Shown piece by piece: positions 40,422-51,032 of a DNA stretch of 64,000 nucleotides. Positions within the stretch are counted from its first letter, which is position 1. Each line of letters begins with the position of its first letter. The stretch is from assembly GCA_018401705.1 (NCBI GenBank), contig JAGYKL010000011.1, positions 1 through 64,000 of the forward strand, in the 5' to 3' direction. The notes under the pieces are model-generated. The model was given only the letters and a program-made list of their open reading frames with translations, did no database searches and was not told where the DNA came from. The position numbers were made by a program, and so were the translations under genes. Source of the stretch: Bacteroidia bacterium. GTDB taxonomy: Bacteria > Bacteroidota > Bacteroidia > M30B66.

Positions 40422-40540
40422 AACGATTTACGATTTACGATTAACGATTAACGATGTACGATTAACGATGTACGATGAACGATTTACGGAATACGACTTT
40501 CGTAATACGATGTACGTAATACGACTTTCGTAATACGTTG
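40422..40540. repeat. Heptamer tandem array A (17 units)
   Basis: Seventeen consecutive 7-base units of the type TACGATT, AACGATG, TACGTAA, TTCGTAA. Positions vary, but all 17 keep CG at positions 3-4. It lies between the TPR gene and glyS. The array is followed by two copies of TTTCCCCTTTTCACT (40544-40558 and 40565-40579), just before the glyS start. Confidence 0.9.
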
Positions 40541-40586
40541 TACTTTCCCCTTTTCACTTTCTCCTTTCCCCTTTTCACTATTTCCT

Positions 40587-45598: not shown

Positions 45599-46471
45599 AT
45601 GAACTTCTACCTATCGGCTCTTATTCTTGGTTTAGCACTCGGTGCTATGGGTTGGGGAATTTATTTGTCGCTAAGGATTTTCAATATTCCTGATATCACA
45701 ACCGACGGCTCTTACACTTTAGGTGCTGCTATTTCGGCGGTGCACCTTGCAGGTGGAGGAAGCTGGCTTAGCGCTTCCATCCTCGCAATTATTGGCGGTG
45801 CCTTGGCAGGTACTCTCACCGGACTCATTCACACTAAGCTTAAAGTAAATGCCTTACTTGCTGGAATTCTTATCATGACAGCAGCTTACTCAGTAAACCT
45901 AAGTTTGATGCAACGCTCAAACATTCCGCTTTTGCAAACATCTAACATGTTCAACAGCCTAAGCTTTTTCAAATCTCCTATACTAAACAGTTTACTCATT
46001 TTAATTCCTGTTCTGCTCCTCTTGGGAAGCCTGCTTGTTTACATGCTAAAAAGCGATTTCGGCATTGCTATGCGGGCCACCGGAAATGCTCCTTTAATGG
46101 CAGCTTCTATGGGAATTCCCGTAAATACAATGAAAATTATTGGCCTTGCTATTGCCAATGGCCTCACCGCGCTAAGCGGTTCCTGGGTAGCTCAATACCA
46201 AAACTTCGCTGATATCAATATGGGAATTGGTATTGTAATTTTTGGTCTGGGTGCCGTTATGATTGGCGAAACCATCATGGACCTCTTCGGCAAAAGGGGC
46301 ATCATCTTCAGAATTCTAGGTGTCATCATAGGTTGTCTGGTGTTTAGGTTTGTTATTGCATTGAGTTTGGCTTCGGGTCTCGATCCAAATTGGCTTAAAG
46401 CCGTCACTGCCTTGCTTGTATTGGTTTTTGTTTCCATCCCCCGTTTTAGGGGCAAAACATTGGCCTTGTGA
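45599..46471 (+). CDS. ABC transporter permease (branched-chain/ribose permease fold)
   Basis: 290 residues with eight or nine membrane helices and the typical GMGWGIYLSLRIFNIPDITTDGSYTLGAA-like start, the KSDFGIAMRATGNAPLMAASMGI loop and a C-terminal FRFVIALSLASG helix. Second gene of the PF04392-type importer. Its stop overlaps the GTG start of the ATPase by four bases. Confidence 0.9.
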   Translation: MNFYLSALILGLALGAMGWGIYLSLRIFNIPDITTDGSYTLGAAISAVHLAGGGSWLSASILAIIGGALAGTLTGLIHTKLKVNALLAGILIMTAAYSVNLSLMQRSNIPLLQTSNMFNSLSFFKSPILNSLLILIPVLLLLGSLLVYMLKSDFGIAMRATGNAPLMAASMGIPVNTMKIIGLAIANGLTALSGSWVAQYQNFADINMGIGIVIFGLGAVMIGETIMDLFGKRGIIFRILGVIIGCLVFRFVIALSLASGLDPNWLKAVTALLVLVFVSIPRFRGKTLAL

Positions 46472-47217
46472 TAGAAATTCAGAATATTCACCTCAGTTTT
46501 AATGAAGGTACTCCGCTCGAGGTGCAGGCTCTTAGAGATGTAAACATTAAATTCGAAAAAGGAAGTTTTAACCTCATAATTGGAGCTAATGGCTCGGGAA
46601 AGTCTACTCTGCTAAATATTCTGGCAGGTTCTCTTTTTCCCCTGCGGGGGAAAGTGCTGCTAGATGGTAAAAACATCACAAAACAGCCCGTGCACCTTCG
46701 AAGCCGCAATATTGCACGCATCTTCCAAAATCCCACTCAAGGTACGGCTCCTGAATTGAGTTTACTTGAAAACTTTAGACTTGCTTCAATTAGAACTCGC
46801 AGCAAAACTCCCTTAGTAGGAATTGACAAGTCGTTTAGAAAAGTCGTTGCTTCGCACGTTAGTATCTTAGATATGGACCTCGAGACCAGGTTAGAACAGC
46901 CTATGTCTTCGTTTTCGGGCGGGCAAAGGCAGGCTTTATCACTGCTCATGGCTACATTCGATCATCTTGACCTTTTGTTACTTGATGAACCAACAGCGGC
47001 TCTTGACCCTAAGTCGGCTGAACTCATTATGAATTTAGCCTTGAAAATAGTGCGCGAAAAGAATCTTACCGCAATTATGGTTACTCACGAATTAAAGCAC
47101 TGTTTGTATCCTGTAGACCGTATTCTTCAAATGGAGAATGGCCGCCTGCGGCGGGATGTAGACCCAGACGAAAAAGCAAGCCTTTCGCTTTCAGATATTC
47201 GAGATTGGTTTCTTTAA
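46468..47217 (+). CDS. ABC transporter ATP-binding protein of the same importer
   Basis: 249 residues, GTG start. Walker A GANGSGKST, Q-loop IFQNPTQG, signature MSSFSGGQRQALSLLMA, Walker B LLLLDEPTAALDP and His in MVTHELKH. It energises the importer encoded upstream. A composite repeat array starts 10 bases after its stop. Confidence 0.93.
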   Translation: MIEIQNIHLSFNEGTPLEVQALRDVNIKFEKGSFNLIIGANGSGKSTLLNILAGSLFPLRGKVLLDGKNITKQPVHLRSRNIARIFQNPTQGTAPELSLLENFRLASIRTRSKTPLVGIDKSFRKVVASHVSILDMDLETRLEQPMSSFSGGQRQALSLLMATFDHLDLLLLDEPTAALDPKSAELIMNLALKIVREKNLTAIMVTHELKHCLYPVDRILQMENGRLRRDVDPDEKASLSLSDIRDWFL

Positions 47218-47227
47218 GTGAGTGTAC

Positions 47228-47470
47228 AACGTACAACGAATTACGAATTACGTACACCGTACAACGAATAACGTATTGCGTACAACGTATTACGTACAAC
47301 GAATTTCGAATAACGTATTACGTACATCGAATTTCGAATAACGTATTACGTACATCGAATTACGAATTACGTGATGAGTCCCCATGAGCCCCCATGAGCC
47401 CCCATGAGTCCCCATGAGTCTGCCGAATGGGCTTGCCGAATGAGCTTGCCGAATGGGCTTGTCGAATGGG
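47228..47470. repeat. Composite repeat array B: 7-mers, then 10-mers, then 13-mers
   Basis: Twenty-one heptamers (47228-47374), each with CG at positions 3-4, for example AACGTAT, TACGTAC, ATCGAAT. Then ATGAGTCCCC-type 10-mers (47374-47420, four and a half copies, T or C at position 6), then TGCCGAATGGGCT-type 13-mers (47421-47470, nearly four copies). The three arrays abut without spacer. The open frames on the minus strand here encode periodic YVIR-like peptides and are not genes. Confidence 0.92.
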
Positions 47471-47634
47471 AAAAGACACGGCATTAACAAAAAGGTGCTG
47501 TTAATGATGGACTATAGAACCGAAATCTGATTATACCAAGATTAACTGAAATAAAGATTCTCAATTCCTTTATCAGTTTTCTTTTAAACATTAGTTTCGT
47601 ATTGTTAAACCAGCAATCCATCGAACTCAGTTGC

Positions 47635-49809
47635 ATGAGAAACTTACTACCCCTTCCACATAGATTTCTAAAGACATCAACGAAATCTTTTGTTGCCTTC
47701 GCACTATTAATTGTATCCGGTATTTCAACGAGTCTTTTTGCCCAAAACTGGGATGAAGTTGTGAAAGCAGTTGCTACGGATAGAGCCGCTAGTGATTGGT
47801 TTGGTTATTCCGTATCGATTTCGGGCAATTATGCGATTGTGGGCGCTAACCGAGAAGACCATAATGCAACTGGTGGTCAGTTTCTTGATAACGCTGGTGC
47901 TGCATATATTCTTAGAAACAATTCCGGTACCTGGACTGTGGTACAAAAGATTGTAGCATCAGATCGAGCTGCCGATGATGAGTTTGGAACTTCTGTGGCT
48001 ATATCAGGAGATTATGCTATTGTAGGTGCTCCAAGAAAAACCGCTACTGTCGGATTTGAATTAAATTCCGCTGCTGGAGCAGTATATATCTTTAAGAATA
48101 CTGATGGCACTTGGAGTCAGTTGCAAAAACTCATGGCCTCAGACCGAGAGTCTGGTGATGAATACGGCCATTCGGTAGCCATTTCGGAGAATTATGTAAT
48201 CGTTGGAGCACCTTATGAGGATGAGTATGTAAATGGACTTTCTCCTTCATCAAATAAGGGCTCAGCTTATATCTATACAAAAGGGGAAACCGTTTGGATG
48301 GATGAGCAAAAGATTGTGGGGAATTCTGTAGGTAATGGTGATAATTTTGGTTGGTCTGTTGGTATTTCTGAAGACTATGCGATTATTGGGACGCCCAGAG
48401 AAAGCCAAATTGCTTCCGGTGGAAGTATACTAGCCGAAGCTGGAACTGCTTATATCTTTAGAAAACTCTCCTCAGGAACCTGGACTCAAATGCAATCGAT
48501 AAATGCTTCTGACAAAGGGGCTGGTGATGAATTTGGCAATTCAGTTGCCATTTCGGGAGATTACGTAATTGTGGGTGCAATGTTGGAAGACCACAATGCA
48601 TCTGGAGGAGCAAACCTGAACTCGGCTGGTTCAGCATATATTTTTGAAAGAAATGGGGGGACTTGGTCACAAATGGATAAGATTGTTGCTTCTGACAGAG
48701 CAGCAGGTGATTTGTTTGGCGTTTCAGTGTCCATTTTTGGAGAGTATGCGATAGTAGGTGCCTACAACGAAGATGAAGATCCAGCAGGAGGAAATACCCT
48801 GAGTAATTCAGGCTCAGCTTATATTTTTAAAAATACCTCTGGTAATTGGGCGCAGGCAAACAAGATTGTGGCATCAGATAGAGGGGGCAGTGACTTGTTT
48901 GGCTATTCAGTTGCTATTTCTGGAGATTATACTATAGCAGGCGCGTATAATGAAGATGAAAATCAAGTAGGAGGGAATACCCTTAGCAATGCAGGCTCTT
49001 CCTATATATTTAAAAATTGTCTAGCCAGTAGAACTGATGTTCATGCTTCTTGCGGTTCATTCACTTGGATTGATGGCAACACATACACCGAAAACAACAA
49101 TACGGCAACATTCAATTTTACAGGCGGAGCTGCCAGTGGATGTGATTCATTGGTTACTTTGAATCTAACTATTAACAATCCTACCGCTGGAGTTGATACC
49201 AGAACAGCGTGTAATTCCTTCACATGGATTAATGGAAGCACTTATACAGCAAGCAACAACACGGCTACTTATAACATCATTGGTGGTGCTGCGAATGGAT
49301 GTGATTCTTTGGTTACGCTTAATTTAACAATTACCGGTGTTACCAACCTAAGCACAACAATTTCAGGTGAAACAATCACCGCAAATAATACATCTGCAAC
49401 TTATCGTTGGCTAGATTGCAATAATAATTATGCTGTGATTAATGGTCAAACTGGCGCTTCATTTAGTCCTACTGTGAACGGAAATTATGCTGTTGAATTA
49501 ACTCAAAATGGTTGTGTGGATACTTCTGCTTGCGTGGCTATAGTAACATTGGGAATTATTGAAAACAGCTTTGGTAATAAGCTAATTATTTACCCAAATC
49601 CTACAAACGGCAATTTCACCATAGATATGGGAAATACATTTAGAAATACAGAAATCCAGATTTCAGATATGCTCGGTAAGGTAATTGAATCTAAATCTGT
49701 GATTAGTACACAAACACTAGATCTTTTTATTCAAGAGCCTGCTGGTACCTACATTGTTACTGTTCGAGCAGATGACAAAAAGGCGGTAATTCGAATAGTG
49801 AAAAATTAA
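47635..49809 (+). CDS. Secreted FG-GAP (integrin-like) beta-propeller protein with T9SS type A domain
   Basis: 724 residues from the ATG at 47635 (a TTG at 47602 is the other option). Signal peptide ending SLFAQ, then seven repeats of about 62 residues with patterns such as ASDRAADDEFGTSVAISGDY and AIVGA, i.e. one seven-bladed FG-GAP propeller. Next come two copies of a cysteine-containing module (SCGSFTWIDGNTYTENNN, GCDSLVTLNLTI), then an Ig-like piece and a type A tail (LIIYPNPTNGNFTIDM, MLGKVIESK, AVIRIVKN). It is probably displayed at the cell surface. Its gene sits between two composite repeat arrays. Confidence 0.88.
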   Translation: MRNLLPLPHRFLKTSTKSFVAFALLIVSGISTSLFAQNWDEVVKAVATDRAASDWFGYSVSISGNYAIVGANREDHNATGGQFLDNAGAAYILRNNSGTWTVVQKIVASDRAADDEFGTSVAISGDYAIVGAPRKTATVGFELNSAAGAVYIFKNTDGTWSQLQKLMASDRESGDEYGHSVAISENYVIVGAPYEDEYVNGLSPSSNKGSAYIYTKGETVWMDEQKIVGNSVGNGDNFGWSVGISEDYAIIGTPRESQIASGGSILAEAGTAYIFRKLSSGTWTQMQSINASDKGAGDEFGNSVAISGDYVIVGAMLEDHNASGGANLNSAGSAYIFERNGGTWSQMDKIVASDRAAGDLFGVSVSIFGEYAIVGAYNEDEDPAGGNTLSNSGSAYIFKNTSGNWAQANKIVASDRGGSDLFGYSVAISGDYTIAGAYNEDENQVGGNTLSNAGSSYIFKNCLASRTDVHASCGSFTWIDGNTYTENNNTATFNFTGGAASGCDSLVTLNLTINNPTAGVDTRTACNSFTWINGSTYTASNNTATYNIIGGAANGCDSLVTLNLTITGVTNLSTTISGETITANNTSATYRWLDCNNNYAVINGQTGASFSPTVNGNYAVELTQNGCVDTSACVAIVTLGIIENSFGNKLIIYPNPTNGNFTIDMGNTFRNTEIQISDMLGKVIESKSVISTQTLDLFIQEPAGTYIVTVRADDKKAVIRIVKN

Positions 49810-49857
49810 ATCGATTTAAAACGCTTGAAAAGCGAAATTTAGAAAACATATTTTCTA

Positions 49858-50043
49858 TAATATAACGAGCAGCACATAACAGCGGCTTGCCAAAATTACC
49901 GGGCTTGTTGCCTGTTTAAACTTGCTTGCATAAATTTTATCTGCTTGCACCTTCACTTGCAAATCGAATGCATTGATATTCAATTGCATACGAAACAGAA
50001 AATATTAGCCTAGAAAGTTTTTTTGTGACGAAATATGGAGCAT
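49858..50043. other. CTTGC-rich 3' flank of the FG-GAP gene
   Basis: Non-coding stretch in which CTTGC or GCTTG recurs about seven times (AGCGGCTTGCC, GGGCTTGTTGCC, ACTTGCTTGC, CTGCTTGCAC, TCACTTGC) with an imperfect hairpin TGCATTGA/TCAATTGCA near 49970-49990. It resembles dispersed intergenic elements seen in Bacteroidota, but I cannot assign it to a known class. Confidence 0.35.
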
Positions 50044-50240
50044 TGCGTACAACGTATTGCGTATTACGTACATCGAATTACGTACATCGAATTACGTATT
50101 ACGTACATCGAATTACGTACATCGAATTACGAATTACGTACATCGAATTACGTTATAAGTCCTGATGAGCCCCCAAGAGTCCCCATGAGCTTGTCGAATG
50201 GGCTTGTCGAATAAGTCCTCATGAGCCTGTCGAATGAGGG
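50044..50240. repeat. Composite repeat array C: 7-mers, then 10-mers and 13-mers
   Basis: Sixteen heptamers (50044-50155), again each with CG at positions 3-4, mainly TACGTAC and ATCGAAT. They are followed by degraded 10-mers (ATGAGCCCCC, AGAGTCCCC, ATGAGC) and 13-mers (TTGTCGAATGGGC, TTGTCGAATAAGT, TGTCGAATGAGGG). Order and orientation are those of array B. The last unit overlaps the 3' end of the anti-sigma gene. Confidence 0.9.
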
Positions 50241-50458
50241 TTATTCAACATCTTCTTAAACTCAGGATCTAACTTTAAAGCAGGACCTTCTGATTTTAAT
50301 GCACGATTTATCATCTCGCTTTGGCGTGCAAAAGACTTACAGTATTTGCATAAAAACAGATGCACTTTCAACTTACGCGCTTCAGATGAGCTTAGTGGCT
50401 CTTCTTCCTTGCGAATGATTTGCTTTGTTGCTTCAGCGCATGAAATAAATATGCTCAT
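50219..50458 (-). CDS. Zinc-finger anti-sigma factor
   Basis: 79 residues, cytosolic, no membrane helix. It has the zf-HC2 type cysteine/histidine pattern (Cys in FISCAEATKQ; His and two Cys in KVHLFLCKYCKSF), as in ZAS-domain anti-sigma proteins. It starts 1 base after the ECF sigma gene stop. The C-terminal residues (NNPHSTGS) and the stop codon are encoded by the end of repeat array C, so the native C-terminus may have been replaced. Confidence 0.82.
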   Translation of the reverse strand: MSIFISCAEATKQIIRKEEEPLSSSEARKLKVHLFLCKYCKSFARQSEMINRALKSEGPALKLDPEFKKMLNNPHSTGS

Positions 50459-50459
50459 C

Positions 50460-51032
50460 TTATTCGTTTATCCAGTTTTTCTCTAAACATGACCTAAGTT
50501 GAACTCTGGCCCGGTGCAGTAAAACCCAGTAGTTCGACGAAGATATATTCATCTCCTTACAAATCTCATCAGCGTCTTTATCTTCGAGGTATTTATAAGC
50601 AAAAACCAATTGTTGCTGCTCTGTAAGCTTGTCGCGGCAAGCCGCTAAAACACTGTAAAATTCTTTTTGTTGCAAAGCATCAACTTCTTTGCTGTGCCAA
50701 TCTCCTGGTGATGCATCTTTCTTCCAGTGACCATTTTTTTCAAAGTGCTCTTCGTTGCCAGAAAGACTAATATGTTCCTGTTTCCGATACTTACTTCTAT
50801 AAAAATCAAGAATCTTATTCTTTATAATTGCGAAAAGCCAGGTTCTCTCCGAAGAGTCACCCCTAAATTCATCAATCCGCCGATAGGCTGCAAAAAAAGT
50901 ATCCTGAACTAAGTCTCTGGCTGTTTCTTCATCACTCACCTTCCATCTTGCAAAGCTGTATAACTCATCTGAGAAACGAGAAACCCAAGTGCTTGCATCC
51001 ACATTTCTGGATTCATTACTTTCTTGCATCAA
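50460..51032 (-). CDS. ECF sigma factor
   Basis: 190 residues. Region 2: RFSDELYSFARWKVSDEETARDLVQDTFFAAYRRIDEFRG and RTWLFAIIKNKILDFYRS; region 4: LTEQQQLVFAYKYLEDKDADEICKEM and SSSNYWVLLHRARVQLRSCL. It is paired with the zinc-finger anti-sigma factor and lies 11 bases downstream of a T9SS type B gene on the same strand, so the three may form one transcription unit. It probably responds to an envelope or redox signal. Confidence 0.93.
   Translation of the reverse strand: MMQESNESRNVDASTWVSRFSDELYSFARWKVSDEETARDLVQDTFFAAYRRIDEFRGDSSERTWLFAIIKNKILDFYRSKYRKQEHISLSGNEEHFEKNGHWKKDASPGDWHSKEVDALQQKEFYSVLAACRDKLTEQQQLVFAYKYLEDKDADEICKEMNISSSNYWVLLHRARVQLRSCLEKNWINE

Follow-up and report, generated by a model that had tools for sequence, protein, structure and literature searches.

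Two composite arrays of short repeats, array B (47224-47470) and array C (50042-50238), bracket a single FG-GAP surface protein gene in the same order and orientation, and on balance we favour the reading that they are ordinary repeats, sister copies of one composite intergenic repeat, which mark an old insertion of the segment carrying this gene. The arrays lie in the window (the whole stretch of 64,000 nucleotides analyzed here), which is part of contig C3 of a Bacteroidota genome of 3.74 Mb in 95 contigs. An earlier sequence-only reading of this DNA had described the bracketing and had noted that only one T9SS gene and a CTTGC-rich tail lie between the arrays; both observations were confirmed, the enclosed DNA consisting of one open reading frame (ORF) of 735 amino acids and a stretch with five copies of CTTGC.

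The left flank of the locus is formed by an ABC transporter ATPase gene (46468-47217, forward strand, Pfam ABC_tran), which closes a gene block that family members share (syntenic in G003, G008, and others), and array B begins 6 nt past its stop codon. The gene between the arrays (47602-49809, forward strand; the ATG at 47635 may be an alternative start) encodes a surface protein with seven FG-GAP_2 repeats and a T9SS C-terminal sorting domain, Por_Secre_tail (Pfam matches PF14312, E-value 4.9e-104, and PF18962, E-value 3.8e-11). On the right, a reverse-strand ORF of 79 amino acids (50219-50458), ending in KKMLNNPHSTGS and a stop, is likely an anti-sigma factor gene and stands between array C and an ECF-type sigma-70 factor gene (50460-51032, reverse strand, Pfam Sigma70_r2 and Sigma70_r4_2). 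The last residues and the stop codon of this likely anti-sigma gene are supplied by the tail of array C. On their outer sides the arrays extend to the flanking stop codons (6 nt away for B, overlap for C), and the inner edges of B and C lie 131 and 232 nt, respectively, from the FG-GAP gene. No recombinase gene was found between or beside the two arrays using the ORFs and Pfam matches at the locus.

The heptad part of array B (47224-47373, forward strand) consists of 21 units (ACGTACA, ACGAATT, ACGTATT, TCGAATT, and others) and is followed by a tail (47374-47470, forward strand) of ATGAGYCCCC 10-mers (47374-47420) and TGYCGAATGRGCT 13-mers (47421-47470). Array C comprises 16 heptads with a vocabulary like that of B (50042-50153, forward strand) and a tail of hairpin-derived 10-mers and 13-mers (50154-50238, forward strand). 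The previous description of both arrays as successive blocks of heptamers, 10-mers, and 13-mers was accurate for B but not for C, in which units of 10 and 13 bases are mixed in the order 10, 10, 10, 13, 13, 10, 13. Searching the window for ACG heptads gave 41 pattern matches compared with 0.04 expected from shuffled sequence, and the arrays have the tandem period of 7 beyond chance that characterizes intergenic heptanucleotide repeats. A literature search retrieved no paper naming the ACG heptads.

Both kinds of tail unit correspond to parts of a hairpin with the 11-nt loop GAGCYTGTCGA and complementary arms, for which no published name was found in the literature search. The 10-mer GAGTCCCCAT matches the 5' arm and the 13-mer TGYCGAATGRGCT is the loop plus the 3' arm, and 10-mers are followed by 13-mers because this is the anatomy of the hairpin. 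Complete hairpins are present in both arrays, with one intact stem in B, CCCAT-GAGTCTGCCGA-ATGGG (5 bp), and two in C, CCCAT-GAGCTTGTCGA-ATGGG (5 bp) and CCTCAT-GAGCCTGTCGA-ATGAGG (6 bp). The same loop with other stems of 6-10 bp occurs on contigs C24 and C51 (AAGTCCCCCT-GAGCTTGTCGA-AGGGGGACTT and TAGTCATGGT-GAGCCTGTCGA-ACCATGACTA), and at C24 half-hairpins recur with a period of 37 nt. In these stem-loop clusters (L161 2919-3620 at C24; L149 4970-5040 at C51, ~1 kb downstream of dxs) the stems vary between copies yet remain complementary. Compared with the dispersed, REP-like GAGCYTGTCGA stem-loops, the tails of B and C share the 11-nt loop and have a stem of 5-6 bp, but differ in their CCCAT/ATGGG stem and in the tandem iteration of the arms. 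Tandem runs of the 10-mer and the 13-mer occur in the own genome only in B and C; 394 further genomes from the class yielded none, except for a single 10-mer match with two mismatches. That the 10- and 13-mers are repeats unique to the locus was nevertheless rejected, since blastn against the own genome found the hairpin family at C24; rather than being the ends of a cassette, they are pieces of a dispersed hairpin, from which the tails appear to descend by slippage.

As judged from their sequences, B and C are probably sister copies related by common descent, because the CCCAT/ATGGG stem was seen only there (no other hairpin with this stem was found in 167 kb of own-genome sequence examined) and because their heptad vocabularies are mutually closest (cosine 0.71; next best 0.52 and 0.54). 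The longest tract identical between them is 28 bp, its copies being 2767 bp apart, and for 12 arrays placed at random ~0.1 pair would be expected within 2.85 kb. The order of heptads is not conserved between B and C beyond shuffled units (9 of 100 shuffles were as good), and for the order of the tail units 37 of 500 shuffles were as good. A colinear duplication of the heptads, undetectable above shuffled units, was rejected. Because heptad order is not conserved the argument for common descent is built on the tail units and the vocabulary, and because unit order does not rise above shuffles the copies would either be old or have turned over fast. A possible though less probable account is that the FG-GAP gene was already there or arrived independently, that the arrays arose from slippage at the 3' ends of genes, and that array sequence was copied between neighbouring spacers by template switching or gene conversion, in which case the bracketing would have had no role in gene gain. 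The vocabularies of arrays on different contigs can be equally alike (C2a/C6b 0.86, C2b/C18 0.68), which agrees with this account. It leaves unexplained, however, why a private stem type found nowhere else stands on both sides of the same gene, and the polarity of array C follows that of B and not that of the gene whose stop codon it overlaps, whereas mirrored polarity would be expected had it originated at the anti-sigma stop.

The own genome was searched for further heptad arrays using a pattern of five ACG at period 7 that allowed up to one mismatch, which gave 147 matches compared with one for a reversed-pattern control; the census from these pattern searches and blastn is a lower bound. 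Arrays of ACGNNNN heptads are present at at least 13 sites in the 3.74 Mb genome, namely at C2 (two), C3 (A, B, and C), C5, C6 (two), C7, C8, C13, C18, and C67, where two arrays were counted as one site. They lie mostly beside unrelated genes, including fbaA/pgi (fructose-bisphosphate aldolase, phosphoglucose isomerase), glyA (serine hydroxymethyltransferase), proS (prolyl-tRNA synthetase), and a DEAD-box helicase gene, and adjoin T9SS-sorted proteins in two cases. An edge at most 8 nt from, or overlapping, a stop codon was found for 9 of the 14 arrays examined, next to unrelated genes, as growth by slippage at gene ends would predict. The two arrays at C67 (L047 3405-3870) are on the same strand, each adjoins one of the two stop codons of a pair of convergent genes, and ~160 nt of non-repeat DNA separates them. 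This paired layout, arising with no gene between, fits the slippage account as well and counts against an insertion. The proposal that the surface gene is a recombining cassette was not supported by the census: no array pair surrounds any other gene, so that one bracketed gene and no set of matched repeats bracketing different genes was found among the 14 arrays, and arrays do stand beside unrelated genes (fbaA/pgi, glyA, proS, the DEAD-box helicase gene) in no cassette pattern, an outcome that the earlier reading had itself named as refuting its proposal.

Array A (40422-40586, forward strand) has ACG heptads followed by CTTTCCC-type heptads, lacks a hairpin tail, and occupies the gap from the stop of a TPR gene to the start of proS. 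This gap measures 169 nt here and 38 nt in the family relative G003, where it contains no array, and because of this difference the growth of heptad arrays in spacers is regarded as late and lineage-specific. As expected for heptanucleotide repeats, the arrays occupy many intergenic loci in the genome and are patchy among relatives, G006 and G007 having some shorter ones and G003-G005 none at the search stringency. Other genomes of the class have heptad arrays of different sequence. The control pattern GCANNNN at period 7 was very frequent in G010 (97/57 matches), G109 (129/54), and G143 (20/8), which have their own arrays of this type. At 4 of 15 array loci (three genomes) an ACTNNNN-type heptad array was found as well, at most 300 nt after the ACG array (L040 1231-1289, L042 3935-3965, L150 2250-2273, L143 1583-1606); the background for this pattern was 2 matches in 553 kb of other Bacteroidota DNA.

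The gene order to the left of array B is conserved in the family, and after the ABC ATPase gene the relatives differ, with dxs in G003, an MFS-like transporter in G009, and other genes in G005; the contig of G008 ends right after the ABC ATPase position. Comparison of the locus with relatives, a check proposed together with the cassette idea, showed the FG-GAP gene to be absent from this place in the family. Both G003 and G009 keep the ABC ATPase gene with neither the FG-GAP gene nor arrays after it, and arrays were found in none of the relative stretches examined around the locus or around FG-GAP homologues. The gene dxs, which follows the ABC operon in G003, is here on another contig with GAGCYTGTCGA-loop hairpins downstream. 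For the sigma factor of the right flank no orthologue at useful identity was found at the corresponding place in relatives, a point that weighs against the insertion reading. In family relatives it is chiefly the C-terminal part of the protein that finds a match, the FG-GAP half having no good one there, and across the searched genomes the best match (41%) comes from another family. From this comparison of sequences the segment between B and C looks like a lineage-specific gain, because family relatives keep the left genes without the gene and the arrays.

The absence of the gene from family relatives, its surface-protein function, and the direct repeats with their identical 28-bp tract would also suit an active cassette, in which B and C would serve as direct repeats for frequent excision, duplication, and exchange and so generate variation within populations. 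We consider this improbable, since no other gene among the 14 arrays examined has paired arrays around it, homologues of the gene elsewhere have no such arrays alongside, a recombinase gene is missing from between and beside the arrays, the unit order of B and C has diverged instead of being homogenized, and the base composition of the FG-GAP gene (GC 0.406) is ordinary for the window. The gene thus showed no foreign base composition. Of the original idea that direct repeats permit excision or duplication, the part that stands is the kinship of B and C as direct repeats sharing a 28-bp tract, together with the possibility of a deletion; cassette behaviour was not supported. A RecA-dependent loss of the FG-GAP gene via this tract, which would restore a single array, is possible.

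For the favoured insertion reading, the composite repeat would be an ACGNNNN heptad array joined to a slipped GAGCYTGTCGA-loop hairpin with its arms iterated in tandem. Such repeats would gain and lose whole units through slippage or unequal exchange and would be tolerated solely outside coding sequence, which would be why arrays begin at stop codons. Ancestrally, a single composite array would have taken up the whole spacer from the ABC ATPase gene to the anti-sigma gene, which converge on it. Recombination at this array would then have brought in ~2.6 kb of DNA, comprising the FG-GAP gene and an additional dispersed element, and left one array copy on each side, whose units then turned over; a single crossover between a circle carrying an array and the resident array would split and duplicate the array in this way. 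Outer edges at stop codons and distant inner edges form the layout expected if one gap-filling array was split. The common descent of B and C, the slippage origin of their tails, and the insertion at the array are inferred.

The further element is the CTTGC-rich tail (49864-50041, forward strand), which contains the densest 100 nt of the window for the word CTTGC (five copies between the arrays). Its first part (49864-49949) is a 79% copy, over the core, of a AACAGCGGYTTGCCAAAATT element at C8:33944-34019, and its second part (49967-50041) matches the adjoining C8:34066-34152 in inverted orientation. The C8 copy (C8:33944-34152) is an imperfect palindrome with AACAGCGG near the left end and CCGTTATGC at the right end, and 134 nt of it were predicted to fold with -41.7 kcal/mol. 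To the eye this dispersed AACAGCGGYTTGSCAAAATT...CCGTTATGC element (L160 3944-4152, equal to C8:33944-34152; window 49864-50041) is attC-like. The FG-GAP gene is followed by a dispersed element that is an imperfect palindrome in its C8 copy, an arrangement recalling the ORF plus attC of integron gene cassettes; unlike in these, no cassette array was seen, and the 3' half (CCGCGAACCGTTATGC) of the C8 copy is missing from the copy next to the gene. It was not classed as attC because this right half is missing, and no complete attC with paired R boxes was found at the 3' end of the gene. No relevant Rfam family was found around the C8 element or for the C24 hairpin cluster; a RAGATH-25 match there fell far short of the gathering score. 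The AACAGCGG pattern had one match in a viral contig (left end; L166 6231-6250), aligned over only 30 nt. A phage or plasmid origin was rejected, as no 10-mer, 13-mer, or heptad pattern was found in viral contigs and neither the tail nor the C8 element in plasmids.

Among the longer simple repeats of many bacteria, those with heptanucleotide units are the commonest (PMC4679880). The same paper cites Mrazek et al. (2007) for heptanucleotide long simple sequence repeats of prokaryotes, and arrays of the heptamer TAACTGA have been described from Beggiatoaceae, Cyanobacteria, and Bacteroidetes (MacGregor, 2015; PMC4679880). The arrays studied here are likewise of period 7, intergenic, lineage-specific, and missing from the same spacer in relatives, but they have ACGNNNN units of mixed vocabulary, which B and C combine with an iterated hairpin. 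By analogy with the TAACTGA repeats of Beggiatoaceae the arrays might function as RNA or protein-binding sites (a 3' UTR element or the target of a repeat-binding regulator), which we regard as very unlikely. Arrays directly after stop codons would be transcribed and the heptads of array C fold better than shuffles (z -2.8), but z was -1.1 for array B, +0.95 for array A, and -0.2 and -1.5 for the tails, and the unit vocabulary varies by site. With folding this inconsistent across arrays, conserved RNA structure was rejected. The GGGAATC and GGGGA(C/T)T repeats of Xanthomonas and Nostoc are heterogeneous heptads near ORFs (PMC4692102) and resemble the present arrays in being intergenic heptads with fixed and variable positions, close to ORFs, and with strong length variation between relatives; unlike these arrays they form G-quadruplexes and have no hairpin part (PMC4692102). 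Conservation of their flanks exceeds that of controls, which is the reverse of what a rearrangement hot spot would show (PMC4692102).

Repeats of 7, 10, and 13 bases that look unrelated thus resolve into two dispersed elements. In Gramella forsetii mixed heptamer arrays adjoin an apparently acquired gene and a role in rearrangement was tentatively suggested (PMC4679880); that study proposed a link between heptad arrays and gene gain which it could not test, and the present window provides a concrete locus at which intergenic heptad arrays coincide with a lineage-specific gene gain. It seems doubtful to us that composite arrays of heptads and hairpins serve generally as landing and exchange sites for genes in the spacers of Bacteroidota, with a circle or fragment that bears the same array recombining into the resident one (Campbell type); if true, this would allow surface-protein genes to come and go between repeat copies with no dedicated enzyme.
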